DNA of 20,155 bases from a virus (IMGVR_UViG_3300042691_015157:1-20155); one strand, 5' to 3'. Positions 2,250 to 16,006 are shown, numbered from the stretch's first letter. Notes: generated by a model from the letters alone, not told the origin. Made by a program: numbers and translations.

Positions 2250-2701
2250 GACCTTACCTCCTTCTCCGCACGAGCCAGAGAGGTTTTGCGCCGCCCCAGC
2301 ATATCTTCACGATACTGTCTCGTCTTGTTGGACGCGATTGTCTTCCAGCACTCCGGGTCAATCTCAAGAGCCCGCGCCATGACCACCGCCCGACGCTTGA
2401 CCCGGTTGACCGGGTGTTGATCCTGATCCACGTAGCCGTGGGGCTGGGGTCCGGCTTCCCGCTCTTGCTGAATCTCGGCGACCAAGAGCTCCCGCTTCTT
2501 GGCGAGGTAGTGAGCCGCCTTATCAAGGTCCTCCAGCTGACCCTGAAGCGACGGGTGCTTCTTGCCAAGCCGCCACAAATACTTGGTGCACGTTGCTACA
2601 AAATAGTCCCAGCCGAGAGCCGCGACGATATCCCAATGCGGGGGGATACCTTCATTCTGGTAATGGGTGCCGCCCACCTGCTTCTTGTTGGCTTCAGACA
2701 T
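2246..2701 (-). CDS. DUF3310 (SaV-like) protein
   Basis: A 151-residue protein whose N-terminal half carries the DUF3310 signature: KQVGGTHY near residue 8, PHWDIV near residue 21, then KYLWRLGKK and EDLDKAAHYL. The family is common in phages next to nucleotide-metabolism and replication genes; its biochemical role is not settled. The C-terminal 70 residues are basic, rich in Arg and Lys, and not part of the usual domain. Its ATG overlaps the TGA of the HD-domain gene by one base (TGATG) and its stop overlaps the next gene (ATGA). Confidence 0.85.
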   Translation of the reverse strand: MSEANKKQVGGTHYQNEGIPPHWDIVAALGWDYFVATCTKYLWRLGKKHPSLQGQLEDLDKAAHYLAKKRELLVAEIQQEREAGPQPHGYVDQDQHPVNRVKRRAVVMARALEIDPECWKTIASNKTRQYREDMLGRRKTSLARAEKEVRS

Positions 2702-3216
2702 CAGAGGTTGTCCTTCATGTCACGATGGTACTGGTTGAGTTCGTCGATGAACGCCGTGAACTTCGCCCCGCCTTCCAGGTAGTAGGGCTCGAGCGCATCA
2801 AGCCCCCGGACGACGATGGCCGAGGCGTAGAGGTTGCCCATCATCACCTCCTTGGTGCAGTGGAGGACAAGCTCGCCGAGGTCCGCCACCTTGAGCACCG
2901 CCGCCTCCTTCTCGGTCAGGTCGTACTCCACGCCCATGTCCATGAGGATACGGGCCTCGGCTTTCTCGATGAGGCTGGCAATCTCTGGTGCTGCCCACTT
3001 GAAGGTCGCCGGCAGATCCCCGGTGACGCTCTCGGCGGCGTCGTGGAAGAGCGCGGCCTTGATCAGAGCGAGAGACGGGTCGGGCTCCAGGTGAAGCACG
3101 ATCGCCAGCACGCCCCAAGCGTGGGCCGAGACGGTCTGGTCGTTCAGCCGGGGAGCGGTGTGGTAACGCAGAGTATCGCCGGAGCGATAGAGCTTGAGGA
3201 GTTGGTCAAAGTTCAC
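2701..3216 (-). CDS. HD-domain 5'-deoxynucleotidase-like protein (YfbR type)
   Basis: A 171-residue HD-domain phosphohydrolase. Metal ligands fit the YfbR family: SAHAW (H32), LFHDAAE (H58, D59), a TGDLPATFK loop after it (compare TGDLPTPVK in YfbR) and KVADLGE (D112). YfbR proteins remove the 5' phosphate from dNMPs. In a phage this can shape the deoxynucleotide pool, which fits the hypermodification cluster upstream. The start is GTG, overlapping the TGA of the DnaA-domain gene as GTGA. Confidence in the HD fold is high, in exact substrate moderate. Confidence 0.85.
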   Translation of the reverse strand: MNFDQLLKLYRSGDTLRYHTAPRLNDQTVSAHAWGVLAIVLHLEPDPSLALIKAALFHDAAESVTGDLPATFKWAAPEIASLIEKAEARILMDMGVEYDLTEKEAAVLKVADLGELVLHCTKEVMMGNLYASAIVVRGLDALEPYYLEGGAKFTAFIDELNQYHRDMKDNL

Positions 3217-3683
3217 TTCGTTATCCTTTTCAGTTCTTGTTCAACTTCGGTTATTTTCTGGCTATCTGCCTCAGCCAGAAAGGTTCGCACCTCGTAGAGT
3301 ATTGTCGTGTGGTCCCGGTTCATGAGCCGCCCGATGCGTGGAAGGCTCATCCCGGTTCGCTGCCGCATCAGGTAAGAGGCGTGCTTGCGAGCGGTAACCA
3401 ATCTGGCCTTTCTACTCCTCCCAGTCAAGTGCATAATTTCGATCCCGTAGACGGTCGACACCGCGCAGAGGATCAGGGAGGCCATGGGTATCAGGTTCTG
3501 CTTGCGCAGATTTTCTACCCGGCGAGCCGTCTCCTCCAACAGGGCGGCGATGCGGCGCTGCTCACGCTCTGCAGCCTGAGCAGCCTTCAGCTTGGCCGCC
3601 ATCCGCCGCTTGTAGTAGGCGTCGGTGCCGTCAATCCTGAAGAACCCACCATCGAGGGCTGCCGCTATCGCCTTCTCGTTCAT
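3213..3683 (-). CDS. DnaA domain IV-like DNA-binding protein without the ATPase
   Basis: A 156-residue protein. Residues 25-62 are a charged, probably coiled-coil helix. Residues about 70-150 match the C-terminal DNA-binding domain of the initiator DnaA: a VSTVYGIEIMHLTGRSR helix, TARKHASYLMRQRTG, then SLPRIGRLMNRDHTTILY with the signature DHTT (D124-T127). In DnaA this domain reads DnaA boxes. No Walker motifs or AAA+ module are present, so it cannot be a full initiator. It may bind host DnaA boxes or phage sites as a helper, a competitor with DnaA, or a transcription factor. Both ends overlap neighbours as ATGA/GTGA. Confidence 0.85.
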   Translation of the reverse strand: MNEKAIAAALDGGFFRIDGTDAYYKRRMAAKLKAAQAAEREQRRIAALLEETARRVENLRKQNLIPMASLILCAVSTVYGIEIMHLTGRSRKARLVTARKHASYLMRQRTGMSLPRIGRLMNRDHTTILYEVRTFLAEADSQKITEVEQELKRITK

Positions 3684-4093: not shown

Positions 4094-4603
4094 TCAGAAG
4101 TTGAAGTTCAAGCCGGTGCGGACTTCAAAGCTCTCGGTCTCGCCGCGATAGAGGCCTTCCAGCTTGATGGACGTGTTGGAGCCCATCATCACTTCGATGC
4201 CGCCGCCGCCCACGATGCCAGCCACAGCCGCGCTGGCGGTGAAGCCGCCGAAGTCGGCACTGAGCGCGGTCGCGCCGTAGCCCGCCGTGGCATAGACCAG
4301 GAAGCCATCGAGGTCGTACCCGGCGCGCAGCCGGATCGAGTCGTTGGCGTAACCGAAGCCTTCCCATGTACCAGCCATCAGGTCGCCTTCGATGCCGATG
4401 ATGACGCTGTCGGCCACGTTCCAGTTATAGCCCAGCGTGACGCCGCCAGCCCAAGCCGGGTCATAGCCCTCAACCAGCGGGCTGACGCCCGTGACGAGGC
4501 CAGCGTAGAAGCCCTGGAAGTCCGACTTGCCATCGGCGTCGGATGCGAGGGTCGGGGTTGCCGCGAGGATGATCGCTGCGGCTGCGAGGAGGTAGGTCTT
4601 CAT
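4094..4603 (-). CDS. Outer-membrane beta-barrel protein (Omp25/31-like)
   Basis: 169 residues from the ATG at 4603, which follows an AGAAAGGTGAG ribosome-binding site. A GTG at 4612 is in frame but lies inside that site, so it is rejected as start. Residues 1-21 form a signal peptide (MKTYLLAAAAIILAATPTLA, cut after A-L-A-S region). The mature protein reads FYAGLVTGVSP, GGVTLGYNW, IIGIEGDLMAG, IRLRAGYDLDGFLVYATAGYG, and ends LNFNF with the C-terminal Phe that BAM recognises, the pattern of a small eight-strand barrel of the porin/Omp_b-brl family. Such a gene is unusual in a phage replication operon. It may be a host-derived moron, for example altering the infected cell surface. That role is inference. 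Confidence 0.88.
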   Translation of the reverse strand: MKTYLLAAAAIILAATPTLASDADGKSDFQGFYAGLVTGVSPLVEGYDPAWAGGVTLGYNWNVADSVIIGIEGDLMAGTWEGFGYANDSIRLRAGYDLDGFLVYATAGYGATALSADFGGFTASAAVAGIVGGGGIEVMMGSNTSIKLEGLYRGETESFEVRTGLNFNF

Positions 4604-4628
4604 ATTGCTCACCTTTCTAAATTATCGG

Positions 4629-4894: not shown

Positions 4895-4914
4895 CTGTGT
4901 TCTCCGTTATAGCC

Positions 4915-4930
4915 GTGGCGTCAGCGCCAC
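4915..4930 (-). promoter_or_regulatory. Leader hairpin, P1 transcript
   Basis: Perfect 6-bp stem GTGGCG / CGCCAC with a CTGA loop in the leftward RNA, ending 4 bases before the ATAACGGAGAAC leader. Similar GGCG-loop-CGCC elements precede other cassette genes. Confidence 0.7.
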
Positions 4931-4939
4931 CGTCCCCTC

Positions 4940-4968
4940 AATATGCGCTGCCTAAAAACAGAAGTCAA
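4940..4968 (-). promoter_or_regulatory. Cassette promoter P1
   Basis: -35 TTGACT (4963-4968), 17-bp spacer, -10 CATATT (4940-4945); AAAAATAAAGC directly upstream as an UP-like box. It drives the run from the 54-residue gene to the DNA polymerase. The -35 box contains the stop codon TGA (4965-4967) of the thymidylate-synthase-like gene. Downstream are a perfect hairpin (4915-4930) and the leader ATAACGGAGAAC (4899-4910). Confidence 0.85.
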
Positions 4969-5918
4969 GCTTTATTTTTGCGCTGCAGCCAACTTTTTTG
5001 CGCGAGGTCCCAATCTTGGGCTGCGACCGGGACGTAACACTGCCTGGAACCCTGTCGATAGCGAAGGAACGACTCCCACATCGGGGCAACCACCTCCCGG
5101 AAGAAGAGGGTATGGGAGTCGACACAGTTACCTCTAGAGAAGAAGTTGAACAGGTCGTCGTCGAAGTCCGCCGGGTCCACGCCGGTCTCGAACAGCGGGT
5201 GAGGTCGGATACCGAGGATGGGGTAGGGGTTGGCGATATACGGGACGTCCTGAACCCGCTCCCAGTCCGGAGTATCCACGTAGGCGTGCATGTTGTTGGT
5301 CGTGTGGTGGTAAAGGCCGACGCCAACCCCGATGTGCCCGGCGAGGTATTCCAATAGCATGGTGAACTGCGGGAAATTGGCACCTCCCGCCGGGCCTCCC
5401 CAGACGACATCGTTGGAACGGTTGAACACGTGGATGTTCAGCTTGCCATCCCGGATGTCCAGGGCAGCGCACAGGTTGCAGGCGGTATCCTTACCCTCGT
5501 ACAAGATGTCGTCGGGATGACGGATCTGCAACACGACCTGACGATCCTGGGGGTTGCGCTTGAGGCGCTTGATCGCCGCGTGGATCTGGTCTACTCCGGC
5601 CCGGAGCCGGAAGCCGTAGGCGGCGTTGAAGTTCTTGCCATCATCCGAATAGTTCCGGAAGCGGGAGACGATGTTGGCGAGGAAGTCCACATCACGTCTG
5701 CCGGCGAGGATCCACAGCGGCTCGAAGAAGTGCAGGTAAGGGTTGATGTTGCGCTTGGAGCAGAACAACACCCGCTGGGTTGGCTGACTGTAAGAGATGG
5801 TGACCGGTGCGGGAGCGCGAAGCACCCGACCGTTGCGGCTGGTCTCCATCACGCCGGAACGCTGGAGCATGCGGACGGTCTGGGGCCATGCGTCGTTGCA
5901 GTTTTCGTAGATGTACAT
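4965..5918 (-). CDS. Thymidylate synthase-family enzyme, probable dUMP hydroxymethylase
   Basis: 317 residues of the ThyA fold. Visible landmarks: EPLWILAGRRDVDFL (substrate loop Trp), RQVVLQIRHPDD, catalytic Cys147 in DTACNLC, the NRSND version of the QRSxD motif (R167, S168, D170), Asn181 at the position that reads the pyrimidine, and MHAY (H211, Y213). The run NRSNDVVWG..GAN..FTMLLEY is typical of phage thymidylate-synthase-like enzymes that make 5-hydroxymethyl-dUMP in phages with altered thymine, and differs from host ThyA by an insertion before Asn181 and by ACN in place of PCH. Next to the kinase and transferase genes this favours dUMP hydroxymethylase; ordinary thymidylate synthase remains possible. 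Start ATG overlaps the kinase stop (TAATG). Its stop codon TGA lies inside the -35 box of P1. Confidence 0.85.
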   Translation of the reverse strand: MYIYENCNDAWPQTVRMLQRSGVMETSRNGRVLRAPAPVTISYSQPTQRVLFCSKRNINPYLHFFEPLWILAGRRDVDFLANIVSRFRNYSDDGKNFNAAYGFRLRAGVDQIHAAIKRLKRNPQDRQVVLQIRHPDDILYEGKDTACNLCAALDIRDGKLNIHVFNRSNDVVWGGPAGGANFPQFTMLLEYLAGHIGVGVGLYHHTTNNMHAYVDTPDWERVQDVPYIANPYPILGIRPHPLFETGVDPADFDDDLFNFFSRGNCVDSHTLFFREVVAPMWESFLRYRQGSRQCYVPVAAQDWDLAQKSWLQRKNKA

Positions 5919-6517
5919 TATTCGTTCTCCTGGAACAGGCGGTAGAGCTGATGGTGGGCGTCGGTGTGGTCGATGTCCACGACGCGGTAGCCCTCCTCGA
6001 TAAGGCGAGCCCGAGCCTTGATCGTGTCTTCGTGCTTCTGGCGAGTGTTGGTCTCGTTGAGAGGCTTCTCCTCACCCCTCGCAGCCCGGCGAGCCCGGAC
6101 GCGGGCCAGGCAGACCTCGATGGGGGTATCAAGCACGGCGAAGATGACCTTGTCCCGGCCAGCCTCCTCAAGCATCGCCTTGGGGAGGGTTGCTCCGGCA
6201 CTCACAGAGCTTGCCAGCAGCCCTTCACACAGGACGTTACCCCCGGCGCGGTAGGCCTTGGTCACGAGCTCGGCGTGCTCGGCCTGCGTTCCCATAACAT
6301 CCAATCCGCCGCAGGTATTGGCGTAGGAGCCCACGAGGTAGAGCGGGAACTTCAGAAGCGGAGGGGTGATGGCGTAGCCCATGACGCGATGAGTGACCAG
6401 ACCCTTGGGACTGGTGAAGGACTTGGTCATCGCGCTGTGTGCGAATTGGAAGAAGCCCCGGACGGCGGTCGTCTTGCCGCTGCCAGAGGTACCACGAAGG
6501 TTGATGATTACAGGCAA
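5918..6517 (-). CDS. P-loop kinase, candidate 5-hydroxymethyl-dU DNA kinase
   Basis: 199 residues with a clear Walker A, GTSGSGKTT (residues 9-17), a NVLCEGLL strand followed by a helix, and an Arg-rich lid (about residues 137-148, ARVRARRAARGE), as in small nucleotide or nucleoside kinases. It sits between the dUMP-hydroxymethylase-like gene and the helical-domain gene, so the best guess is the kinase that phosphorylates 5-hydroxymethyl-dU, in DNA, as the first hypermodification step. A deoxynucleoside monophosphate kinase is the main alternative. The start is TTG at 6517, 8 bases after the GGAG of the shared ATAACGGAGAAC leader. Its own weak cassette promoter and hairpin lie upstream (6539-6573). 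Confidence 0.75.
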   Translation of the reverse strand: MPVIINLRGTSGSGKTTAVRGFFQFAHSAMTKSFTSPKGLVTHRVMGYAITPPLLKFPLYLVGSYANTCGGLDVMGTQAEHAELVTKAYRAGGNVLCEGLLASSVSAGATLPKAMLEEAGRDKVIFAVLDTPIEVCLARVRARRAARGEEKPLNETNTRQKHEDTIKARARLIEEGYRVVDIDHTDAHHQLYRLFQENE

Positions 6518-6538
6518 GGTGTGTTCTCCGTTATAAGT

Positions 6539-6554
6539 GGCGTCACGCTACGCC
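6539..6554 (-). promoter_or_regulatory. Leader hairpin, kinase gene
   Basis: Perfect 5-bp stem GGCGT / ACGCC around AGCGTG, just upstream of ATAACGGAGAAC; it overlaps the poor -10 of P2. Confidence 0.65.
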
Positions 6555-6573
6555 GGGTTGAGGGGAAAGTCAA
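6545..6573 (-). promoter_or_regulatory. Degenerate cassette promoter P2
   Basis: -35 TTGACT (6568-6573) at the family position before the kinase gene, but 17 bp downstream the -10 reads TAGCGT and the AAAAATAA box is missing. The leader hairpin (6539-6554) and ATAACGGAGAAC (6523-6534) are intact. It may be weak, dependent on an activator, or decayed. Confidence 0.5.
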
Positions 6574-6582
6574 GCGGAAAGT

Positions 6583-7473
6583 TCAGTAGGCGGTCTCGGG
6601 CCTGTACTGGGAGCGGGGACGGCTCTCTCCGCGAAGCACTCCTTCTATCTTAGCTGCTTCACAGAAGCAGTTTTGGATATCGTGTAGTGTCAGGTCGGCT
6701 ATGTTCAATTGCTCTTTAATATGGATGTTCACACGTATAAGAGCTTCGCAGAAATCCTCACTTGTCCATGAGTGAGAAGGCTTCAGATTGTAGAGGTAGT
6801 TCAACCCCCGCTGCGAGCCGGGGCCTCGGGGTGCGAAGGTGTAGAGGTCCGTAGCTTTATCAAGCTGCCCAAAAAGATAGGTGAGGTCTGCGGCAGCCTG
6901 CCCTGACATGAATGTCGCCATCCCGTAGGGAGCCGATAAAGCCGTTACCGTATTCTCTATGGAGTTGGAGCGGACAGCCTCACGAACCTTATCCTTGATC
7001 CTTATCAGACCGGCGAGCACCGTGTCGCAGAGGAACTCTTCCTTGTTGGCGGGACTACCGACCTTGTGACCGGGATAAACGAGATACGCACTCGTATATA
7101 CCTTGAACTCGGGCTCCTTCTTGAGCATAGAGATCACGAACTTGAACCCGGCTCCGTCAAAGCTGTCGACGTCGTCCAAGTTGAGCTCGGCTTCCAGTAA
7201 TGCGTCGAGGGTCGGAGGCCAGTTAATTAGTCGGGCGACAACCGCCGCCAGCCAGATGTCGGGACCGGTCATACGGGGATAGTAGTTCTTCAGCAGCCAC
7301 TGCGACACCCGATCATCCCGGCGGCGGATGTTGCAGAAGCGATACTTCTGCAGGATGGGGTCTGTTGTCCACGGGCCGGGATGACCAGAGGCTTTGCGGA
7401 TACGCATGTTTTCACGCTCGTTGACGAAGTAGATAAAGCGGGATAGAACTTCCGCAGAAACTTCAGACTTCAT
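6583..7473 (-). CDS. 5-hmdU DNA kinase helical-domain / thymine hypermodification family protein
   Basis: 296 residues from the ATG at 7473, which has GGAGA 7 bases before it; the longer frame to 7530 overlaps the endonuclease gene and is less likely. The N-terminal region holds the motif I recall from proteins in thymine-hypermodification loci: NERENMRIRKASG, then PWTTDPILQKYRFCN and RRRDDRVSQWLL. The middle and C terminus are helical (AAADLTYLFGQLD, ILEKLW-like helices). I assign it to the helical domain family (HMUDK_hel, also filed near the alpha-glutamyl/putrescinyl-thymine pyrophosphorylase group), known from Iyer and Aravind's analyses. No Walker motif is present, so it may act with the separate 199-residue kinase. 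The 3' quarter is AT-richer than neighbours. Confidence 0.65.
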   Translation of the reverse strand: MKSEVSAEVLSRFIYFVNERENMRIRKASGHPGPWTTDPILQKYRFCNIRRRDDRVSQWLLKNYYPRMTGPDIWLAAVVARLINWPPTLDALLEAELNLDDVDSFDGAGFKFVISMLKKEPEFKVYTSAYLVYPGHKVGSPANKEEFLCDTVLAGLIRIKDKVREAVRSNSIENTVTALSAPYGMATFMSGQAAADLTYLFGQLDKATDLYTFAPRGPGSQRGLNYLYNLKPSHSWTSEDFCEALIRVNIHIKEQLNIADLTLHDIQNCFCEAAKIEGVLRGESRPRSQYRPETAY

Positions 7474-7474
7474 T

Positions 7475-8233
7475 TCAATTCTCCACTCGAAGAGACGATA
7501 CGAAAGCTTCCCATTTAGAAAAATGGGCATTGTGATGAGGAGGCTTAACTTCTGGAAACTGAGATTTCACACTTTCCCAGATAGTGCGAAATGGACCAGA
7601 TAAATATCTCACGTTATATATAGCCTCTTTGTGGCGTCTACGAACCTCAGGATCTTCGTAGGCCTTATTCGTCATTTCAGAAATACGCGATTTAACTTCG
7701 GGTCTGGAGTTAGTTTCTTTCGCTATTATAGAAAACCGCTCTCGCACCTCGGGTCTAGAGAAAGTTTTTCTTAGGGTTGCGGCTCTGGCTTCATAAACTC
7801 CCGGCTTACTCAACGCAGTCTTTACTGCCGCAATCTGTCGCTGCTTATACTCAGGATCCTTATATTTCTGCAGCAAAGCTTCTCTATGCTTTGTTCTTAA
7901 TGCTGGTGACTTCCACAGGACTTTCAGTTGTTCTGAAGTAAGTCCGTCTCCACCTTCCGAACGATTCAGACACTTGCGACCGTATTTGCTTCTAAGTCGA
8001 TCTATTGTTTTTCGTTCCAAGGAGTTCAGCTCATCAAGGTCTCGAGCCCAAAGAACGACTCGGTTTTTGCATGTGGAAGTTCCATACTTCTTTATCGCGG
8101 AATGAAGAATAACCCCGGATCCGAAATAGCTCGGAACATAAGCCTTGGAATGTTTCTTACCGGCATACCAAAGCACTCCTTTCGGGGTGCTTACGCGAGT
8201 CAGGTAGATGTATCCAAAGCGATCTGCGGTCAC
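7475..8233 (-). CDS. GIY-YIG homing endonuclease
   Basis: 252 residues from a GTG at 8233 that overlaps the TGA of the transferase gene (GTGA). The catalytic domain shows GYIYL (residues 7-11), WYAGKK (22-27), Y37 in YFGSG, the WARDLDELNSLERKTIDRL region with the catalytic Glu75, and CLNRSEGGDG (90-99). Residues about 100-220 hold repeated short helices of the SPALRTKHREAL, SRPEVRERF, SRPEVKSR, EDPEVRRRH type, like NUMOD DNA-binding modules of phage homing enzymes (Seg type). The DNA is clearly AT-richer than the flanks. It is a free-standing selfish gene inserted between two hypermodification genes; it is unlikely to take part in the pathway. Confidence 0.9.
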   Translation of the reverse strand: MTADRFGYIYLTRVSTPKGVLWYAGKKHSKAYVPSYFGSGVILHSAIKKYGTSTCKNRVVLWARDLDELNSLERKTIDRLRSKYGRKCLNRSEGGDGLTSEQLKVLWKSPALRTKHREALLQKYKDPEYKQRQIAAVKTALSKPGVYEARAATLRKTFSRPEVRERFSIIAKETNSRPEVKSRISEMTNKAYEDPEVRRRHKEAIYNVRYLSGPFRTIWESVKSQFPEVKPPHHNAHFSKWEAFVSSLRVEN

Positions 8234-9225
8234 AGGAAGTGTTCTCCTCTGTAGGGGAAGCCGGTGCGGGGGAAGATCTTTGCCCGGTCGGGGATGCTCA
8301 GCTTGTCGTTGTGAGCCTCGTTGCGCAGCCATCGGGGCAACTCTTCTCTGATCTGCCAGATCGCAGCGGAGGGCTTGTCCTTGCCCCAAGCCTCCTCGTG
8401 CTTCAGCAGCCGCTCGTAGGCCATGTCGGCATAAACACCCCCATAACGACGACCGAAGAAGTGGTTCTTGAATTGACAAAGCTGGCTCTCGAACGTGAAG
8501 TAGCCGACGTCGGGATGAGGGTATACCGAGAGGTGGTGTTTGATGACCCCGTTGGCCTTCCCGGCCAGCCAGTCGCACATCTTGTCGTAGTCTTCGTACT
8601 TCCCATCGAACCCGTTATTGGCCCGCTTGTCGTTGACGAGGTGGTCCATTCCCATCAGGAACAGCATCCCGTTGCGGTGGGACTTGGAGCCGTCCTTGTC
8701 CCAGAACATCAGGTCCTGACAAGCGGTCCCGTATCCCATGATCTTCACGTACTCCAGGTAGGAGAACGTGGACAGCCGACCGAAGCTGTAATAGTTGGTC
8801 GAGACGAGGTCCCAGAGCTCGGTATAGCTCTTTTCGCTCAGCATCTCCACCTGAGAACCGTATTTGCCGACCAGCCGGGCGTAGGACTTGATGGCGGGGA
8901 CAGTGTTGCGCTTGTTCTTCAGGCGGTCGGTGTCGAAGAACAGCCGGGGCCACTCCAGGTTGAACCACCCGTCGAAGACCTCGATGTTGTCGTCCGGATC
9001 AGGGCAGTCCGACAACTGATGCATCATGAGGAGCGAGGTCAGCGGGTTCTGTGTCATCCCGTTGAGGAAGGCGAACCAGAGAGCCTGCTCGGGGGTCCAG
9101 TTGAAGCGGGACTTGAGGGCTGGCATGTAGAGATACACGAGGCCGGGCATGATCCCATGCTTCAGGTTCATGTCGTAGAGCTTGTGGAAGTAGTCCACAC
9201 GCTGGGGGTGGGGGCGGTAGTCCAT
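8230..9225 (-). CDS. Amino acid:DNA transferase-like protein (aGPT-Pplase2 type)
   Basis: 331 residues. The order of motifs fits the phage family that joins an amino acid to phosphorylated 5-hydroxymethyl-dU in DNA: LNGMTQNPLTSLLMM in a helix after NWTPEQALWFAF, then FFDTDRLKNKRNTV, IKSYARLVG, YTELWDLV, SFGRLSTFSYLEYV and SKSHRNGMLFLMGMDHL with the RNG signature. From family knowledge this step follows the 5-hmdU DNA kinase and sets which amino acid appears on the base. The substrate cannot be read from the sequence. A good ribosome-binding site (AAAGGATAACCG) precedes the ATG, 3 bases after the methyltransferase stop. The assignment rests on motif memory, not on a search. Confidence 0.7.
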   Translation of the reverse strand: MDYRPHPQRVDYFHKLYDMNLKHGIMPGLVYLYMPALKSRFNWTPEQALWFAFLNGMTQNPLTSLLMMHQLSDCPDPDDNIEVFDGWFNLEWPRLFFDTDRLKNKRNTVPAIKSYARLVGKYGSQVEMLSEKSYTELWDLVSTNYYSFGRLSTFSYLEYVKIMGYGTACQDLMFWDKDGSKSHRNGMLFLMGMDHLVNDKRANNGFDGKYEDYDKMCDWLAGKANGVIKHHLSVYPHPDVGYFTFESQLCQFKNHFFGRRYGGVYADMAYERLLKHEEAWGKDKPSAAIWQIREELPRWLRNEAHNDKLSIPDRAKIFPRTGFPYRGEHFL

Positions 9226-9228
9226 CGG

Positions 9229-9969
9229 TTATCCTTTCACAGGCTTGAGACCGTTGTGACCGCACCCGGCCTCGAGCTTCAGGAACTCGATTTGGGCAAC
9301 CGGCTTCGGCTCGATGCGGATGTAGAAACAGGTACCATGGTAGACCATCCCGGTCACATGGTAGCCATACGTCTCGCTGATCATCTTGTCGAAGGCGTAG
9401 GCGTAGGTCTCCCGATCCTCCGTGACCGCGTAGCCCCGCTTCTGCAAGGCTTTCGCCGTGAAGTGATAGCGGCAACTCGCACCGTCCGTGATGAGGATTG
9501 CGCGGGGGCGGTTGGCGACCATACGCGCCATCTCTGGTGCCCAGTAGCCAGACTGGTGCTTTATCAGTGTGAAGAAGGGGAAGTCGCAGACATAGATATC
9601 TGCCGGCGAGGTGCCGAGGGTGTCGTGCGCGTTCTCGTGGTGGATGCTGACGCTCTCGTAGCCCGCGAGAGCGTGCTGAAGTTGGTTGAAGCAGTCTTCA
9701 TCGAGCTCGCTGATGCGATGGTAAGATGGCTTCATCTGCTCCTGGATGGCAACAGAGAAGACCCCGCAACCCCCGAACGGCTCCACGTAGGAGAGCCCCT
9801 TGGGGAACTTCTGCAGCAGCCACGAGATCGCCATCACGTTCTTTCCGGTCTCCTGCCAGCGACCGTTGAGGTATTCGTAGTAGGACAGGTCGCCGTCAGG
9901 CATCTCCTTGGCGGTGCCGGGGATGAGTGAGAACGGGTACTTGTTCAGGATTGTCCAGTTGGTGGTCAT
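9229..9969 (-). CDS. Divergent class I methyltransferase with DFPF in place of DPPY
   Basis: 246 residues from the ATG at 9969 (a longer frame to 10098 overlaps the upstream gene). Motif I reads YVEPFGGCGVFSVAI (about residues 60-75), as in D12-type adenine-N6 methylases (VEPFAGGG), followed by an acidic strand end, SELDED. At the motif IV position, where these enzymes have DPPY, it reads VCDFPFFTL. Later strands ILITDG, TCFYIRIEP complete a Rossmann pattern. The first Pro of the motif is Phe, so it may be an inactive relative or modify an unusual substrate, such as the altered thymine or its side chain. It lies between the PLP-enzyme side and the transferase gene of the hypermodification cluster. 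Confidence 0.65.
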   Translation of the reverse strand: MTTNWTILNKYPFSLIPGTAKEMPDGDLSYYEYLNGRWQETGKNVMAISWLLQKFPKGLSYVEPFGGCGVFSVAIQEQMKPSYHRISELDEDCFNQLQHALAGYESVSIHHENAHDTLGTSPADIYVCDFPFFTLIKHQSGYWAPEMARMVANRPRAILITDGASCRYHFTAKALQKRGYAVTEDRETYAYAFDKMISETYGYHVTGMVYHGTCFYIRIEPKPVAQIEFLKLEAGCGHNGLKPVKG

Positions 9970-9976
9970 GCGAGTC

Positions 9977-10348
9977 TTAGTCCTTTTCACAATTTTGAGC
10001 GGCCTGAAGTTTTCTAGGTTGGATCTCTTTTGTTTCAATTTTAACCTTGAGTTCTTTGGCAAACTCTTCGAAAGAGACGTAATAGAAATATGGTTCATTA
10101 CCGGAAAGCAGTTTTACACGCCGCACGACAGGTATAGCTGACCACAACTTTTCCAATATCGCGTTTATGTTGCGGACGCTGTTATAATCGTCTGTGATTT
10201 CCGGTAAGCTTTTGCCGATATAGTGAGGTTCTCGCGCCGATAAAATACCAACACAGTTATCACACATCCAGTTAAGAACGTAGCTTTGGGAAGCGTTGAG
10301 TATCTCCCACGCTTCCGGACTGGTTCCCGGACCTTGATCTTTGGCCAT
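9977..10348 (-). CDS. Unknown AT-rich gene, 123 aa
   Basis: Not recognised. 123 residues; a strong ribosome-binding site AAGGAGAAAGAT precedes the ATG, so it is very likely translated. Visible features: WMCDNCVG (a single CxxC), a hydrophobic core pattern NAILEKLWSAIPVVRRV, FYYVSFEEFAKEL, and a charged basic tail. The base composition is AT-richer than the flanking PLP and methyltransferase genes, like the homing endonuclease at 7.5-8.2 kb, suggesting separate acquisition. It could be a pathway accessory protein or unrelated cargo. Confidence 0.7.
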   Translation of the reverse strand: MAKDQGPGTSPEAWEILNASQSYVLNWMCDNCVGILSAREPHYIGKSLPEITDDYNSVRNINAILEKLWSAIPVVRRVKLLSGNEPYFYYVSFEEFAKELKVKIETKEIQPRKLQAAQNCEKD

Positions 10349-10365
10349 ATCTTTCTCCTTATACG

Positions 10366-11313
10366 TTATGTTGTGAAATATGGACGGCAGACAGCCGGGT
10401 CGGTGTCAGCCCCGACGATCCAGAACCCCAGACCCTCTGGGTTGTCCAGAGAGCCCTGCTCCCTGAGCCAACGGATCATCTTGCCCTCGTAGGTGGGGTG
10501 GAAGACGATGTCGTCGTAGGTCTCCGGCATCAGGTCTGAGTACGAGGCGTAGCCGCTGTCGTGGAGGGAGATCTTGTAGTTCCAGTCGAACGGCAGGTTC
10601 TCCGGGTCCACCCCCATAACCCGGAGGCGGCTCTTGGTCCAGGCCAGCTTGTCCGGCCCGATGCCGATGCTCACCAGCTTGCGCAAGTTGTGGGGGTTGC
10701 GGGCCAGACCCAGCATCACGCTGGTCAGGGAGTTGCAGCTGCCGGCAGGGACGATGAGCGTGTGCACCTCATCCGGGATGTTCTCGGTCTGCACCGCGCC
10801 GACTTCGTGGAAGGCGGTCACGTCCTCGGCGGTGTTTTTCACGTGGTCCAGAGTGATGCCGTAGGGGACGACAAAAGCCTGCTCCTCACCCTCGTTCTCG
10901 AACTGGTGACGAAGCTCCTCAACCCGGCGCTGTAGGGCGGGGTTGTAGGCGACCTTGATGAAGTCGAACTCGGCTCCGAACCCGGCGGCGATAGCGGGGT
11001 TGGGGTAGTTGAAGAGCGTGGCGGGGGAGGTGGCCCCGACGACGTTGAGGCTCTTCATACCGTATACAGCGGCGAGGAAGGCTGTCATGCTGTGCTGAGG
11101 GGAACGCACGCTCGCACCGGTGACCACCTGTGTAGCGTTGCCTCTGTACTTCTCGAACAGATGGATAAGCTGACGCAGCTTGGAGCCGGACAGACCCCCG
11201 TAGCCGAGGGGTGCGAACTTGTCCTCACGCTTGAACCAGATCCCCTTGTGGAGTTCCCAAGGGGTGAGTCGGGCGGCGAGGCGAGTGAGGTCTTGAGGTG
11301 TCGGCAGGGTCAT
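10366..11313 (-). CDS. PLP-dependent enzyme, fold type II (ACC deaminase / D-cysteine desulfhydrase-like)
   Basis: 315 residues. The N terminus reads IWFKREDKFAPLGYGG then LSGSKLRQL; K45 fits the PLP Schiff-base lysine (compare GGNKxRKL). GASVRSPQHSMTAFLAA corresponds to the substrate loop after it, and VPAGSCNSLTSVMLGL to the Gly/Ser phosphate-binding loop. In cells this family deaminates or eliminates from small amino acids. In thymidine hypermodification a PLP enzyme processes the amino acid already attached to the DNA base, for instance by decarboxylation, which is the probable role here given the neighbours. ATG at 11313 has the AACGGAGAACGTA leader and lies 48 bases after the DUF932 gene, behind a UUCG hairpin. 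Confidence 0.8.
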   Translation of the reverse strand: MTLPTPQDLTRLAARLTPWELHKGIWFKREDKFAPLGYGGLSGSKLRQLIHLFEKYRGNATQVVTGASVRSPQHSMTAFLAAVYGMKSLNVVGATSPATLFNYPNPAIAAGFGAEFDFIKVAYNPALQRRVEELRHQFENEGEEQAFVVPYGITLDHVKNTAEDVTAFHEVGAVQTENIPDEVHTLIVPAGSCNSLTSVMLGLARNPHNLRKLVSIGIGPDKLAWTKSRLRVMGVDPENLPFDWNYKISLHDSGYASYSDLMPETYDDIVFHPTYEGKMIRWLREQGSLDNPEGLGFWIVGADTDPAVCRPYFTT

Positions 11314-12252: not shown

Positions 12253-12492
12253 TTAGAAGTGGACCCAGCTCAGATCCACTCCGTTGGAGGCGGCGAAGGT
12301 CTTGCCCTCAGCGGTGAAGCTGACCCAGTCGCATCCTTCGTCCTTGAAGGTCTTGACCAGACCATTCTTCTTGAGGTCCGTCAGGTTGCCGCGCTCTTTG
12401 TTGGAGATGTCGAGGAGCGGGGTGCCGTTCCAGTTGCCAGCGTCGTTGGCGAGGGCGAGGAAGAGGGCGAGCGAAGCGGGGGTCAGGTTCAT
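12253..12492 (-). CDS. Small protein with winged-helix-like pattern, 79 aa
   Basis: 79 residues: helix LALFLALANDAG, helix DISNKERGNLTDLKKNGLVKTF, and a beta wing WVSFTAEGKTFA. This L-x2-L-x4-GL-V followed by strand and FTxxGxxFA is typical of small winged-helix proteins of the MarR type. It is the first gene after promoter P3, with the ATAACGGAGAACGAC leader before the ATG. The fold is inference; as a possible regulator it may act on the cassette promoters. Confidence 0.7.
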   Translation of the reverse strand: MNLTPASLALFLALANDAGNWNGTPLLDISNKERGNLTDLKKNGLVKTFKDEGCDWVSFTAEGKTFAASNGVDLSWVHF

Positions 12493-12510
12493 TGTCGTTC
12501 TCCGTTATGC

Positions 12511-12526
12511 GAGGCACCAGCGCCTC
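12511..12526 (-). promoter_or_regulatory. Leader hairpin, P3 transcript
   Basis: 5-bp stem GAGGC / GCCTC around GCTGGT, 2 bases before the shared ATAACGGAGAAC. Confidence 0.6.
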
Positions 12527-12535
12527 AGTACACCC

Positions 12536-12564
12536 TTTATGCGCTGTTCAGAAACGAAAGTCAA
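12536..12564 (-). promoter_or_regulatory. Cassette promoter P3
   Basis: -35 TTGACT (12559-12564), 17-bp spacer, -10 CATAAA (12536-12541). Upstream palindrome TTATTTTTG / CAAAAATAA (12568-12592). Leader hairpin 12511-12526 and ATAACGGAGAAC at 12497-12508. Likely transcribes the winged-helix-like gene, DUF932 and the hypermodification genes behind them. Confidence 0.85.
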
Positions 12565-12593
12565 GCGTTATTTTTGGGCAGGGCAAAAATAAT

Positions 12594-12800
12594 TTACGGG
12601 TTGGTCTGGGGGCCGACCCTGAACTCTCCGCACCAACCATCTGGCGCGACCCTGATCCGGAGGTCGCTACCGTGCAGGTTGCTCTGGGGGTGTGGCGGCG
12701 GGAAGCGTACGCAGTACCCCGTATCCCACCTCCTGCCGAACGTGCCCATCCGTGGGCGAAAGTACCTACAGATGGAGCACGATTCGGACATCTCGTTCAT
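12594..12800 (-). CDS. Four-cysteine small zinc-binding protein, 68 aa
   Basis: 68 residues from the ATG at 12800, which overlaps the coiled-coil gene's TGA by one base (TGATG); a TTG one codon earlier is possible. Four cysteines are arranged CSIC (8, 11), TGYC (30) and WCGEF (57), with PPP and an Asp-Gly-Trp-Cys end, a pattern seen in small phage proteins with a C-x2-C ... C ... C zinc site. Function unknown. Its stop TAA lies just beyond the AT-rich box upstream of promoter P3. Confidence 0.72.
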   Translation of the reverse strand: MNEMSESCSICRYFRPRMGTFGRRWDTGYCVRFPPPHPQSNLHGSDLRIRVAPDGWCGEFRVGPQTNP

Positions 12801-13168
12801 CAACCCTTGGCGTTCTCAGCCCCAGCCTCGGCGTCTTCAATCGGACCGAGGACGTTTTCGATCTCGCTGGCTGCGGCCTCGATGGCGTCCTCCAGGGTGG
12901 AAATGAGGCTGTCGAGAGCATCGTTGGCTTCGTCGGCTGAGGACTCGGCGTTCTCGAGCTCGCTGATGGCCTCTTCGGCGGTGGAGGCGCGGTCGGACGA
13001 GGCCATGTTCTCGGGCATGTTGTCCCGGTACTCCTGCTCTTCGTCCTTGATGGTTTCGAGGTTGTCCTTGGCGTCTTCGAGAGCGGACTTGGCGTTCTCC
13101 AGATCGCCACGGATACCCTGGAGGGTGGAGATGAGTTCGTCGATGGCCTTGCGGCGGGCAGCGTTCAT
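12800..13168 (-). CDS. Acidic coiled-coil protein, 122 aa
   Basis: The ATG at 13168 follows AAAGGATACAGACCA, after promoter P4; a longer upstream reading frame runs through the promoter and is rejected. The 122 residues are strongly acidic and helical, with heptad-like runs (LQGIRGDLENAKSALEDAKD, AEEAISELENAESSADEAND). A central DEEQEYRDNMPENM motif resembles that of small phage coiled-coil proteins. No enzymatic motif. Function unknown. Confidence 0.75.
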   Translation of the reverse strand: MNAARRKAIDELISTLQGIRGDLENAKSALEDAKDNLETIKDEEQEYRDNMPENMASSDRASTAEEAISELENAESSADEANDALDSLISTLEDAIEAAASEIENVLGPIEDAEAGAENAKG

Positions 13169-13216
13169 TGGTCTGTATCCTTTATCAGCGGGGGCACCAG
13201 CACCACCCGTGGTTTC

Positions 13217-13245
13217 TATATGGCGCATTTCGCCGGGGAAGTCAA
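13217..13245 (-). promoter_or_regulatory. Cassette promoter P4
   Basis: -35 TTGACT (13240-13245), 17-bp spacer, -10 CATATA (13217-13222), before the coiled-coil gene. The upstream box occurs twice as a direct repeat, TTATTTTTGGGG on the + strand at 13249-13260 and 13269-13280, 20 bp apart. Here the leader ends with AAAGGATACAG in place of the usual ATAACGGAGAAC. Confidence 0.85.
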
Positions 13246-13268
13246 GCTTTATTTTTGGGGTGCGTAAA

Positions 13269-13577
13269 TTATTTTTGGGGGCGGTTGTTCCAGATTCTTT
13301 CCACAATGAGATACCCCAACTTGTCGTATCCGTTATTCCGGGTGGCGGCGTTGTCAGTGTACCTCTTTTGGTTCGCGGCTGAAATTGTGTGAAAGGGGCC
13401 TTTGTGTCCATATTCACGAGCAACCGTGAGCGGCGTCACATGTTCATGAACCATGGTTGATATGAAAATGTTACCGGCAGGACAGCCGGTCCGAACGTAG
13501 TTGTTGTCGTACTGGTCCACGGTTCTTTCAGATTTGGCCGGGCCAGCGCAGAACGGGCAGGGAAGTAGGGAAGACAT
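13269..13577 (-). CDS. Lar-like zinc-ribbon protein (possible restriction alleviation)
   Basis: 102 residues. The start MSSLLPCPFCAG and the end IVERIWNNRPQK match the Lar family layout (LKPCPFCG ... A...WN.R). C7, C10 and C32 are visible metal ligands; a His or Cys partner further on is less clear. Lar of the Rac prophage reduces restriction by type I enzymes, so an anti-restriction role is possible, but many small zinc proteins share this pattern. GGAG lies 8 bases before the ATG. Its stop TAA is part of the second AT-rich box of promoter P4. Confidence 0.72.
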   Translation of the reverse strand: MSSLLPCPFCAGPAKSERTVDQYDNNYVRTGCPAGNIFISTMVHEHVTPLTVAREYGHKGPFHTISAANQKRYTDNAATRNNGYDKLGYLIVERIWNNRPQK

Positions 13578-13599
13578 AAGTATACTCCGAAGCTTGAAA

Positions 13600-13636
13600 G
13601 CTCCCTCGGAGGGTTGAAGCGGAAATCCGAGGGAGC
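13600..13636 (-). promoter_or_regulatory. Intercistronic hairpin before the Lar-like gene
   Basis: Perfect 11-bp stem GCTCCCTCGGA / TCCGAGGGAGC with a 15-base loop, in the 89-base gap between the 76-residue gene and the Lar-like gene. The strongest stem in the leftward arm; no clear U-run follows. Confidence 0.72.
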
Positions 13637-13666
13637 CGGGGAAGCATGTGTCTGTGCGGATTTCTC

Positions 13667-13897
13667 CTACTCAGTCGTGCTACAGGACCGCTGCGGCTCC
13701 GGAACCCGGCTGCCTGCCGGGATGAGTTGGTGGGCGAGATAGAGCCGGTCCATCTTGAAGACCCGGCAGTGCCGCCCAGTGAAGGCGAAGATGTCGTCAG
13801 CGGCGTTCATCGCGTCGTTGAAGCGGTCGTAAAGGGGAGCGGCTTGAGGACCGACCGGGTCTTTGTTAGACCACTCCGTGACCATGAAGAAGCTCAC
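13667..13897 (-). CDS. Hypothetical protein, 76 aa
   Basis: Not recognised. 76 residues from a GTG that overlaps the TGA of the 90-residue gene (GTGA); an in-frame ATG at residue 5 is the alternative start. Sequence landmarks: LYDRFNDAMNAADDIFAF in a helix, then HCRVFKMDRLYL as a strand. It is translationally coupled to the gene upstream and is followed by a strong hairpin before the Lar-like gene. Confidence 0.62.
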   Translation of the reverse strand: MSFFMVTEWSNKDPVGPQAAPLYDRFNDAMNAADDIFAFTGRHCRVFKMDRLYLAHQLIPAGSRVPEPQRSCSTTE

Positions 13898-14166
13898 TTG
13901 CCAGCCTCCTTTCCTGTCGAGTAGACCCGGACCTTGATGGTGGGGTGTACGTAATCCCGGATGGCCTCGTAGGCCTCGCTCTCGCTCTTGGCGTCCTGCA
14001 GGGCGAAGGTCAGCTTCGCGGCGTTGCGGTCCACGAGGTTGCTCAGGGCGAGCGAGACCATGGAGCCCGTAAAGTAGGAGATGGTCTTGTCGGGCTTGAG
14101 CACGATGTACGATGTGTTGTTGCCGTCGATGATCTCGAAGCGATACGGGCGGGTCTGAGCGGTCAT
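13894..14166 (-). CDS. Hypothetical protein, 90 aa
   Basis: Not recognised. 90 residues; N-terminal beta strands (YRFEIIDG, YIVLKPDKTISYF), then a helix (MVSLALSNLVD), a second helix (ESEAYEAIRDYV) and a final strand (IKVRVYST). It is the first gene after promoter P5, with the ATAACGGAGAACGACC leader directly before the ATG. Confidence 0.72.
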   Translation of the reverse strand: MTAQTRPYRFEIIDGNNTSYIVLKPDKTISYFTGSMVSLALSNLVDRNAAKLTFALQDAKSESEAYEAIRDYVHPTIKVRVYSTGKEAGK

Positions 14167-14213
14167 GGTCGTTCTCCGTTATGAGCAGGGGCACCTCGCC
14201 GCCTGTGTCTTCT

Positions 14214-14242
14214 TATATACGTCGGGTCGGTGTGGAAGTCAA
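14214..14242 (-). promoter_or_regulatory. Cassette promoter P5
   Basis: -35 TTGACT (14237-14242), 17-bp spacer, -10 TATATA (14214-14219), before the 90-residue gene. The upstream element is a GC-flanked 14-bp palindrome (14253-14281). Leader ATAACGGAGAAC at 14171-14182. Confidence 0.88.
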
Positions 14243-14252
14243 GCGTTGTTTT

Positions 14253-14281
14253 GGGCTGGCCAAATACTATTTGACCAGCCC
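14253..14281. promoter_or_regulatory. Palindrome upstream of P5
   Basis: Two 14-base arms (GGGCTGGCCAAATA and TATTTGACCAGCCC) pair with one wobble around a single C. It lies between the 71-residue gene stop and the P5 -35 box. There is no T-run after it in the leftward direction, so it is not a classical terminator. Confidence 0.7.
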
Positions 14282-14287
14282 GGTTGG

Positions 14288-14503
14288 TTATTCGCCGTGG
14301 TCGCGTGCGTACTTCTCCAGGAGCTCGAGCCGATCGATGAGCCGGGAGTAGTCCCGCAGGAGAGTGAGCAGGGGAGCCTTGCTCACGTAGGCCATCTGGG
14401 TGGTCTCCCGGATCTTCTCTACCTGCGAGTGCAGGAGCTCGAAGTCCTCCTGAGAGAGCTCGGTCTTGACCGGGAGGCGGCGATGGGAAAGGTTGGTGGT
14501 CAT
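14288..14503 (-). CDS. Hypothetical helical protein, 71 aa
   Basis: Not recognised. 71 residues with a basic N terminus and two long amphipathic helices (LSQEDFELLHSQVEKIRE and LLRDYSRLIDRLELLEKY), so it may dimerise as a coiled coil. AAGAGGAACC lies before the ATG. It follows the 97-residue gene after a UCCG-loop hairpin and ends just before the palindrome upstream of promoter P5. Confidence 0.65.
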   Translation of the reverse strand: MTTNLSHRRLPVKTELSQEDFELLHSQVEKIRETTQMAYVSKAPLLTLLRDYSRLIDRLELLEKYARDHGE

Positions 14504-14532
14504 GGGGTTCCTCTTGGGGGGAAGGGGAGAGG

Positions 14533-14550
14533 GGGAGGCCGGAGCCTCCC
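14533..14550 (-). promoter_or_regulatory. Intercistronic UCCG-loop hairpin
   Basis: GGGAGGC-UCCG-GCCUCCC in the leftward RNA, 7-bp stem, right after the 97-residue gene stop. Confidence 0.7.
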
Positions 14551-14557
14551 GCCGGGT

Positions 14558-14851
14558 TCAGTTCTGCGAGGCCCAGAGGGCTGCGTCCATGTTCAGCGAC
14601 CATGCCTCAGGGATGTCGCGGCTCGGCTTTCCCTCATAGCAGAGAGCTCCCTTGACAACTAGAGAGGCGAAGGTGCCGCCAGCTTCCTTCTTGGACCAGC
14701 CGTTGGCGGTCAGGGTGTCCGGGTAGGCCCAGGTGTACGGGTCGCTCTCGAGATCGGCGTAGCAGCTGCCACCCATGCCGGACAGGCACTCGGCGTATAG
14801 AAGCTTCACAGCCTTGGCTTCGTTCTCGGTGAAATCAAAGGTCTTGGTCAT
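14558..14851 (-). CDS. Hypothetical protein with winged-helix-like core, 97 aa
   Basis: 97 residues: helix FTENEAKAVKLLYAECLSG, a GGSCYADLESDPYTW loop, then LTANGWSKKEAGGTFASLV followed by VKGALCYEG. The spacing of helices and the GGTFASLVVKG turn resemble winged-helix proteins and echo the 79-residue protein at 12253-12492, though sequence identity is low. It is the first gene after promoter P6 with the ATAACGGAGAACACCG leader. Confidence 0.68.
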   Translation of the reverse strand: MTKTFDFTENEAKAVKLLYAECLSGMGGSCYADLESDPYTWAYPDTLTANGWSKKEAGGTFASLVVKGALCYEGKPSRDIPEAWSLNMDAALWASQN

Positions 14852-14895
14852 CGGTGTTCTCCGTTATCGCGATGCATGTGCGCACCGTAACCTCT

Positions 14896-14924
14896 TATAT
14901 GCGCCCTTTGCGTGCAGAAGTCAA
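14896..14924 (-). promoter_or_regulatory. Cassette promoter P6
   Basis: -35 TTGACT (14919-14924), 17-bp spacer, -10 CATATA (14896-14901), before the 97-residue gene. Upstream perfect palindrome with 10-bp arms (14928-14937 and 14943-14952). Leader ATAACGGAGAAC at 14856-14867. Confidence 0.88.
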
Positions 14925-14927
14925 GCT

Positions 14928-14952
14928 TTATTTTTGGGCTGGCCAAAAATAA
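14928..14952. promoter_or_regulatory. Palindrome upstream of P6 (possible operator or UP element)
   Basis: Perfect inverted repeat TTATTTTTGG - GCTGG - CCAAAAATAA. Its inner copy abuts the -35 box by 3 bases, where RNA polymerase alpha subunits contact UP elements. Related copies lie before P3 and P8. Confidence 0.7.
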
Positions 14953-14967
14953 TTTGCTGGACCTACT

Positions 14968-15132
14968 TCATGTCAGTTCTCCGTTCTTCAGTTTGAGCTT
15001 GTAGTTACCGTTGTTGTTCATGGCGTAGGCAACCGCCTCCGCGAGGGTGAGGACGCACTCGACCTTGCGGCCCTTGAGTGTGATGTCGTAACCGTGGACC
15101 ATGGGGTTGCGGGTGATGATGTAGGTTTTCAT
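14968..15132 (-). CDS. Hypothetical protein, 54 aa
   Basis: Not recognised. 54 residues: strand YIITRN, strand YDITLKGRKVECV, helix LAEAVAYAMNN, strand YKLKLKNG, a small alpha/beta pattern. The ATG directly follows the TAG of the XRE gene (TAGATG). Its 3' end contains a copy of the shared ribosome-binding leader, AACGGAGAAC, read in frame as N-G-E-L, which is followed by a two-codon frame. Confidence 0.65.
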   Translation of the reverse strand: MKTYIITRNPMVHGYDITLKGRKVECVLTLAEAVAYAMNNNGNYKLKLKNGELT

Positions 15133-15381
15133 CTATTTCCTCGGTGGTTTTGGCAGGGTGCGACCCAGCAGGTAGTCGAGCGACACCTTGTAGCCGATGG
15201 CGTAGACCTCCAGAACCTGGAGCTTGGGGTTCCGCCCGGAGTGCTTGGTACCCTCGTGGGCGACCACAGTGGGGATGGGGAGCCCGAGGTATCGGGCTGC
15301 ATCGCTGGCGGTCTCGAAGCCTGCGGCCTCTCGGGCGGCTCGGAGGCGGAGGGCGAAGGGGGTGTAGGTCTTGGTGCTCAT
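15133..15381 (-). CDS. XRE-family helix-turn-helix regulator
   Basis: 82 residues from the ATG at 15381; a very long upstream extension of this frame crosses other genes and is rejected. FALRLRAAREAAGFETASDA, ARYLGLPIPTVVAHEGTKH, LQVLEVYAIGYKVSLDYLLG follow the five-helix pattern of XRE/Cro DNA-binding proteins (R-x2-R-x2-AG at helix 1, S-AA-YLG at helix 2, LDYLLG at the end). It is the only clear DNA-binding regulator in the leftward early region and is a candidate for control of the repeated promoter cassettes. Transcribed with the 59- and 88-residue genes from P7. Confidence 0.8.
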   Translation of the reverse strand: MSTKTYTPFALRLRAAREAAGFETASDAARYLGLPIPTVVAHEGTKHSGRNPKLQVLEVYAIGYKVSLDYLLGRTLPKPPRK

Positions 15382-15382
15382 G

Positions 15383-15649
15383 TTACACCAGCCCCGCGAT
15401 CGCAGCCTCGAGGGAGTCTTCCTGACGGATGACCTCGGCGCGACCGTAGCGGTCCAGCTTGTCGGCATCCCAGACGAACCAGACGACGTCCGGTCCGAGG
15501 CGATTGTGCAGCGGAGCGACCGCGTAGCGGCTGTCTGAGAACTCGTCACCGAAGGACCTCTTGGTGTCGGCGAGCATGCCCGGCATGTGCGGCATGTTCT
15601 CGTATGTGCGGCAGAAGGGGTTCGTGCGGAGGGGGAGGAGGTTAGCCAT
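15383..15649 (-). CDS. Hypothetical protein, 88 aa
   Basis: Not recognised. 88 residues with a beta-rich middle (YAVAPLHNR, DVVWFVWDAD) and a C-terminal helix (SLEAAIAGL). AAAGGAGCCCTCCT precedes the ATG, a good ribosome-binding site. The stop TAA is 1 base before the ATG of the XRE gene. The N terminus has C13 and several Met-Pro pairs but no metal pattern. Confidence 0.68.
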   Translation of the reverse strand: MANLLPLRTNPFCRTYENMPHMPGMLADTKRSFGDEFSDSRYAVAPLHNRLGPDVVWFVWDADKLDRYGRAEVIRQEDSLEAAIAGLV

Positions 15650-15685
15650 AGGAGGGCTCCTTTCTGAGAGCGGGGAGGGGGAGGG

Positions 15686-15701
15686 AGAGGCCGGAGCCTC
15701 T
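15686..15701 (-). promoter_or_regulatory. Intercistronic UCCG-loop hairpin
   Basis: AGAGGC-UCCG-GCCUCU in the leftward RNA, starting directly after the TAA of the 59-residue gene; same design as 14533-14550. Confidence 0.68.
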
Positions 15702-15881: not shown

Positions 15882-15900
15882 GGTCGTTCTCCGTTATCGG

Positions 15901-15921
15901 GGTGAAGCACCTCGCCTCACC
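15901..15921 (-). promoter_or_regulatory. Leader hairpin, P7 transcript
   Basis: 8-base arms GGTGAGGC / GCTTCACC (one G-U pair) around GAGGT, 3 bases before ATAACGGAGAAC. Confidence 0.68.
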
Positions 15922-15930
15922 GTAACTTCT

Positions 15931-15959: not shown

Positions 15960-15970
15960 GCGTTATTTTT

Positions 15971-16000: not shown

Positions 16001-16006
16001 GGCTGA

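Follow-up and report, generated by a model that had tools for sequence, protein, structure and literature searches.

The window analysed here, a 20,155-base contig of an uncultured phage in IMG/VR (IMGVR_UViG_3300042691_015157, complete as a record and not a whole genome), carries on its minus strand a predicted thymidine hypermodification cassette built around a thymidylate synthase (TS)-family enzyme, a P-loop kinase, a PF18723 protein, a PF18724 transferase and a pyridoxal 5′-phosphate (PLP)-dependent enzyme (Table 1). In transcription order, the genes encode the PLP enzyme, an orphan protein, a methyltransferase, the transferase, a homing endonuclease, the PF18723 protein, the kinase and the TS, followed by an outer-membrane-barrel-like protein, a DnaA C-terminal-like protein, a YfbR-like HD nucleotidase, a DUF3310 protein and a DNA polymerase. 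Since most cassette genes overlap or leave only short gaps (−4 to 17 bases), they are taken as one operon; a gap of 65 bases ahead of the kinase gene contains a promoter-like and Shine-Dalgarno module. An original prediction had named the five core proteins, and profile searches and homology found all of them in place, on the one strand and in the families proposed. It had passed over three genes in the same span, namely those for the homing endonuclease, the S-adenosylmethionine (SAM)-dependent methyltransferase and the orphan.

Table 1 Features of the cassette and its flanks in the window, in order of minus-strand transcription.
Feature	Position	Strand	Basis
PLP-dependent enzyme, fold type II, ViI-type	10366–11313	−	phrog_3650
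Orphan open reading frame (ORF), 123 aa	9977–10348	−	no relatives found
Class I SAM-dependent methyltransferase, 246 aa	9229–9969	−	AlphaFold model and Foldseek
Amino acid:DNA transferase (ADDT; aGPT-Pplase2), 331 aa	8230–9225	−	PF18724
Homing endonuclease, GIY-YIG-like	7475–8233	−	phrog_314, 1.1e-11
PF18723 protein (HMUDK_hel/aGPT-Pplase1), 296 aa	6583–7473	−	PF18723, 1e-36
Promoter-like and Shine-Dalgarno module before kinase and TS genes	6518–6582	−	GCTTGACTT at 6567, ATAACGGAGAAC at 6523; consensus match
P-loop nucleotide kinase, predicted 5-hydroxymethyldeoxyuridine (5-hmdU)-DNA kinase, 199 aa	5918–6517	−	phrog_800, 3.5e-16
TS-family dUMP hydroxymethylase (by family), 317 aa	4965–5918	−	PF00303, E 1e-19
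YfbR-like HD 5′-deoxynucleotidase	2701–3216	−	PF12917, 3.5e-10
Phage DNA polymerase, downstream end	5–1846	−	phrog_1252

The TS-family enzyme also matched phrog_5131 (8.9e-88), and its residues C147, R167, S168, D170, N181, H211 and Y213 are invariant among 11 phage relatives. With roles taken from the TS literature and mapped by hand, these include the catalytic cysteine (C147) and the uracil-type asparagine (N181), both invariant among hypermodified phages, a pattern that points to a dUMP hydroxymethylase. The kinase is homologous to M6 gp054 and to the kinases of phages Lucjan and Sonora (IPR040924); its Walker A motif (GTSGSGKT) is intact and, together with R143, invariant. Members of this phage 5-hmdU kinase family (phrog_800; M6 gp054, L014:8039–8602) are labelled terminase small subunit in PHROGs and in several GenBank records, which is probably an annotation error that has spread.

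The PF18723 protein scored 127.2 bits against a cut-off of 25, matched phrog_2396 (3.6e-47) and is 43–53% identical to its counterparts in the related loci L003, L007 and L058; its predicted length is right given a start at 7473, which the sequence supports. The transferase scored 48.5 bits (E 1.2e-12) against a PF18724 cut-off of 26.2 and keeps 39 invariant positions across 21 relatives. Its AlphaFold model (pLDDT 93.3) had 8z2m and 8z2n as its only convincing PDB matches (Foldseek probability 1.00, TM 0.54–0.62, E 0.008–0.012), and a transferase profile including M6-type members matched 8z2m at 2e-74. The two proteins on which the original prediction hinged, of 331 and 296 residues, therefore do match hypermodification families. 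The PLP enzyme matched phrog_3650 at 8.3e-79, with PF00291 below its cut-off; its PLP lysine, K45, is invariant in 13 sequences, and it is 40–41% identical to the enzymes of ViI and Vibrio phage 1.244 and 21% identical to M6 gp052.

This gene set agrees with the published M6-like cassette, which comprises a hydroxymethylase, Nmad5, aGPT-Pplase1, a kinase, a radical SAM enzyme, a PLP enzyme and aGPT-Pplase2 (PMC9476957), and with ViI-like phages (PMC10458263). PF18723 is accompanied by PF18724 in M6, ViI, W-14, Vibrio phage 1.244, Sonora, Lucjan and phiA8-29, and by annotation in Montesquieu, whose clade-2 gene escapes the Pfam model; Mycobacterium phage Zemanar has PF18724 without PF18723, and five unmodified phages have no PF18723. 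The pairing had been thought unusual, an idea that we reject, as both families are present in nearly all hypermodified phages tested and the cassette recurs in dozens of contigs (L003, L058, L059–L061, L077–L087 and 34 further loci). Scanning viral contigs with a transferase alignment gave at least 560 relatives among the 600 matching stretches listed, and the 79 close ADDT loci examined were mostly of the order PLP-ADDT-KIN-HEL-TS (34) or ADDT-KIN-HEL-TS (21). The position of the DNA polymerase gene is syntenic in L003, L007, L058 and most of L075–L087. The five-gene cassette thus belongs to a class that is known and very common in the environment. Thymidine hypermodification is supported by the families to which the proteins belong, by their conserved catalytic residues, by the structure of the operon and by numerous syntenic relatives. 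A different layout was seen at L062:393–5776, which has a methyltransferase, a PLP enzyme, a transferase, a Ploopntkinase3 kinase and a TET/JBP oxygenase (PF12851, 2e-19) and, in the sequence covered, no TS; there, 5-hydroxymethyluracil presumably arises by oxidation of thymine in DNA.

Phylogenetic trees divided the cassette. TS clustered (100/100) with its counterparts in M6, Sonora, Lucjan and environmental phages; on that side, and away from the ViI group, the PF18723 protein was placed as well (87/86). By contrast, the transferase fell with the ViI group (91/94), split from the M6 group (100/100), and the PLP enzyme was split from M6 and Pam3 (100/100) on the ViI side, the branches being long in both cases. 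Pairwise matches agree with the trees and also place the kinase with M6-type phages. By these sequence comparisons, the cassette is a mosaic of M6-type TS, kinase and PF18723 genes and ViI-type transferase and PLP genes, which shows that recombination can join an early half of the pathway of M6 type to a late half of ViI type. Both marks of the ViI branch, its type of PLP enzyme and of transferase, are present, while those of the M6 branch, a radical SAM gene and an M6-type PLP enzyme, are absent within this 20 kb fragment, in which no Nmad5 gene was seen either, unlike in M6 and Pam3. The DNA of ViI carries 5-(2-aminoethoxy)methyl-deoxyuridine (5-NeOmdU; PMC6449724, PMC11721090) and that of M6 carries 5-(2-aminoethyl)-deoxyuridine (5-NedU; PMC6449724). 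With the window lacking a visible radical SAM or Nmad5 gene, the trimmed base is therefore more likely to be the ViI-type product, and 5-NedU is disfavoured, as it also is by the other type of PLP enzyme.

Between the transferase and PLP genes lies the methyltransferase gene, whose product found no sequence match in Pfam, PHROGs, NCBIfam, PADLOC or PDB. By sequence the family appears unclassified, and it may already have been mentioned in Lee 2018, Lee 2022, Iyer 2013 or Wen 2024. Its AlphaFold model (pLDDT 93.3, pTM 0.90) matched Trm1 (1.2e-8) and the carbamoyl N-methyltransferase Asc-Orf2 (1.5e-8) in Foldseek, as well as RlmCD, RumA and M.BseCI, and two uncultured phage proteins annotated AdoMet_MTases in BFVD are close to it (42% and 31%). 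The predicted Rossmann methyltransferase fold and the glycine-rich motif I (EPFGGCG), followed by motifs II (ELDED) and IV (DFPFF), indicate a class I SAM-dependent methyltransferase. Core-clade proteins have DFPF as motif IV and distant members DFGD or DLGR, none of which conforms to the [DNS]PP[YFW] of N6-adenine and N4-cytosine DNA methyltransferases (D12 and others).

Nineteen environmental viral contigs contain the gene, and 18 of them also encode the transferase, usually in the order PLP enzyme, methyltransferase, transferase and nearly always within a few kilobases (about 10 kb in one). The remaining contig, a fragment of 9.2 kb, has only a truncated methyltransferase copy at its end. 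Among the 15 contigs not chosen through the PLP enzyme (that of L058 was met by both routes), 14 have the transferase, against a base rate of 374 in 50,697 phage records. A search of 84,980 bacterial and archaeal genomes yielded no confirmed relative, and tblastn of isolated phages found no methyltransferase of this family except a homologue in phage Pam3. As only 10 of the 79 transferase loci contain the gene, it would serve an accessory step; the methyltransferase is an optional sixth component of the cassette. Outside such a cassette, a copy at L085:7441–8741 stands beside a 2-oxoglutarate-Fe(II) oxygenase gene (PF13640, 1.7e-14), with the transferase about 10 kb off.

From the computed fold and linkage we infer that methylation takes place, on what group, and which base results: in a step dedicated to thymidine hypermodification, the enzyme would act on the appended aminoalkyl or amino-acid group, giving a methylated (N- or other) 5-NeOmdU derivative and hence an undescribed base, an assignment we make tentatively and at somewhat under even odds. 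Were the pathway instead to end at 5-NeOmdU, or a glycyl or aminomethyl equivalent, the methyltransferase would be an orphan DNA methyltransferase, for example of the N6-adenine type. Foldseek matches to the N6-adenine enzymes M.BseCI and METTL5, a weak MethyltransfD12 score in one relative (E 0.14) and the absence of the gene from 69 of 79 relatives fit this alternative, which we nevertheless consider unlikely given the tight operon position in several lineages, the 18/19 linkage to the transferase, the lack of a confirmed relative in the cellular genomes searched and the departed DPPY motif. An adenine methylase is thus disfavoured, chiefly by motif IV and the linkage, and kept as a rival. 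The enzyme might also methylate the carboxylate or alpha-amine of an amino-acid intermediate, before or in place of PLP trimming. L075:775–2321 contains two tandem methyltransferase paralogues, 45% and 61% identical to that of the window, and this fragment shows no PLP gene; some further loci likewise have the methyltransferase without a PLP gene in the sequence covered; but the PLP gene is directly upstream in most methyltransferase loci, and the L075 fragment starts so close to the methyltransferase genes that a PLP gene may have been cut off, which leaves this order of events quite doubtful.

The homing endonuclease gene, at which local GC dips to 0.495, separates the transferase and PF18723 genes and overlaps the ADDT stop codon as GTGA. 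It is absent from L058, the closest relative (53–76% identical across the cassette), where the ADDT and PF18723 genes overlap by four bases, and in W-14 a homing endonuclease gene lies directly beside the PF18723 gene. By these comparisons it is a mobile invader of the operon and not a pathway component. The 123 aa orphan, for which searches of Pfam, PHROGs, phages and viral contigs came back empty and which is replaced in L058 by an unrelated ORF of 121 aa, is probably not part of the pathway either. A foreign, low-GC gene within the operon, and a PF18723/kinase gene order swapped relative to L003 and L077, could suggest a degenerate cassette whose pathway was broken by insertion and reordering; with all reading frames intact, the catalytic residues kept and the same swapped order in L058, which is free of the insert, this is very improbable.

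We therefore favour, at a probability of roughly 0.7, the reading that these genes are a tailed phage's operon for thymidine hypermodification, in which a ViI-type base is subsequently methylated. By analogy with known phages, the TS-like enzyme would convert dUMP to 5-hydroxymethyl-dUMP, and replication would build this into the phage's DNA. There, the P-loop kinase would phosphorylate the hydroxymethyl group, and the PF18724 transferase, in some way together with the PF18723 protein, would replace the phosphate by a free amino acid. Homology to characterised phages underlies all four of these steps. The ViI-type PLP enzyme would then remove the carboxylate and leave an amine, most likely giving the 5-NeOmdU of ViI, and the methyltransferase would most likely methylate this new amine, its target being the least certain step. 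Thymine would probably become a bulky amine-bearing base that blocks restriction enzymes, shielding the phage DNA against host nucleases. Which of a host's defences are effective depends on the chemistry of the phage DNA, and biotechnology makes use of enzymes that write new bases. Through its linkage to the pathway and its absence elsewhere, the methyltransferase family offers a specific and testable candidate for a tailoring step that would be new.

Counting avoided restriction sites had been proposed as a check. In the window, 6-bp palindromes with TG or TC were not avoided (observed/expected, O/E, 0.98), while those without T were (0.20). Values for TG/TC palindromes were 0.95–0.98 in ViI, W-14 and the contigs of L007, L083 and L086, and 0.50–0.80 in five unmodified phages. 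The outcome is mixed, since other cassette carriers do not fit (M6, 0.47; Sonora, 0.67; Lucjan, 0.83; L058, 0.75), and we reject site avoidance as proof of modification. The counts are compatible with protection at TG/TC sites, to which they lend weak support, and M6 and L058 contradict it.

Several points weigh against the reading as a whole. M6 and L058 avoid TG/TC palindromes despite their cassettes, the contig, at 20 kb, is a fragment, and the kinase stays below the Pfam cut-offs (14.1 bits against 27 for PF18748). Motif IV of the methyltransferase departs from [DNS]PP[YFW] and is lost in distant members, so that N-methylation by this enzyme is not proven; its top structural matches include the non-amine methyltransferases RumA and RlmCD, and 4 of its 19 contigs were first reached through a PLP search. 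The PLP step of ViI is reported by Lee et al. (2018, 2022) to be a decarboxylation.

A repeated intergenic module stands on the minus strand only, at 4899–4970, 6523–6576, 12497–12566, 13239–13247, 14171–14244, 14856–14926, 15886–15961 and 16485–16550. It consists of GCTTGACTT (8 copies on the minus strand, 0 on the plus), about 17 bases, a TATATT- or CATATT-like element and then ATAACGGAGAAC (7 and 0 copies) ahead of start codons; it resembles a sigma-70-type promoter followed by a Shine-Dalgarno element and is common in part to L058. Most of the short orphan genes in a minus-strand series at 12253–16480 have their own module, and the series precedes a plus-strand primase-helicase gene, so that a divergent early region is likely there. 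Directly after the primase-helicase gene, the 10-base unit CCCATAGGAC is repeated in four tandem copies (19206–19245). tRNA and Rfam scans of the window gave no matches. Adjoining the cassette, a predicted outer-membrane beta-barrel protein (4094–4612; PF13505, 1.8e-10) is possibly a receptor-masking or superinfection-exclusion protein, and near the DNA polymerase gene a phage protein with a DnaA C-terminal DNA-binding domain (3213–3683; PF08299, 4e-18) may mark the phage origin. The YfbR-like nucleotidase, whose gene occupies this place in M6 and most relatives too, could lower competing dTMP.

Among known systems, Salmonella phage ViI (Kuttervirus) has, like the window, a TS, a P-loop kinase, PF18723, PF18724 and a PLP enzyme of type phrog_3650 (35–41% identity), but its genes are scattered (37, 87, 140 and 151 kb), whereas those of the window are compact; ViI-like phages also have a second P-loop kinase (PMC10458263). 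Pseudomonas phage M6 (Yuavirus) has a compact cassette near its DNA polymerase gene, as in the window, and together with Lucjan and Sonora it supplies the closest named relatives of the window's TS, kinase and PF18723 protein; M6 differs in its radical SAM and Nmad5 genes and in a transferase (13% identity) and PLP enzyme (21%) on very distant branches. The 5-phosphomethyl-deoxyuridine (5-PmdU) glycinyltransferase gp46/PUGT of PaMx11 (8z2m, 8z2n) shares the fold of the window's transferase at 11–13% identity. Glutamicibacter phage Montesquieu has clade 1 and clade 2 proteins, a PLP enzyme, kinases and a TS/hydroxymethylase, as does the window, but in another gene order, with a much longer TS and no annotated methyltransferase. 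Pseudanabaena phage Pam3 combines an M6-type cassette, including the radical SAM and Nmad5 genes that the window lacks, with the distant methyltransferase homologue Pam3_39 (25–28%, E 2e-5), which lies four genes upstream of its PLP gene and is without DFPF. Within this known class, the cassette of the window is set apart by its mosaic make-up and above all by its linked methyltransferase.

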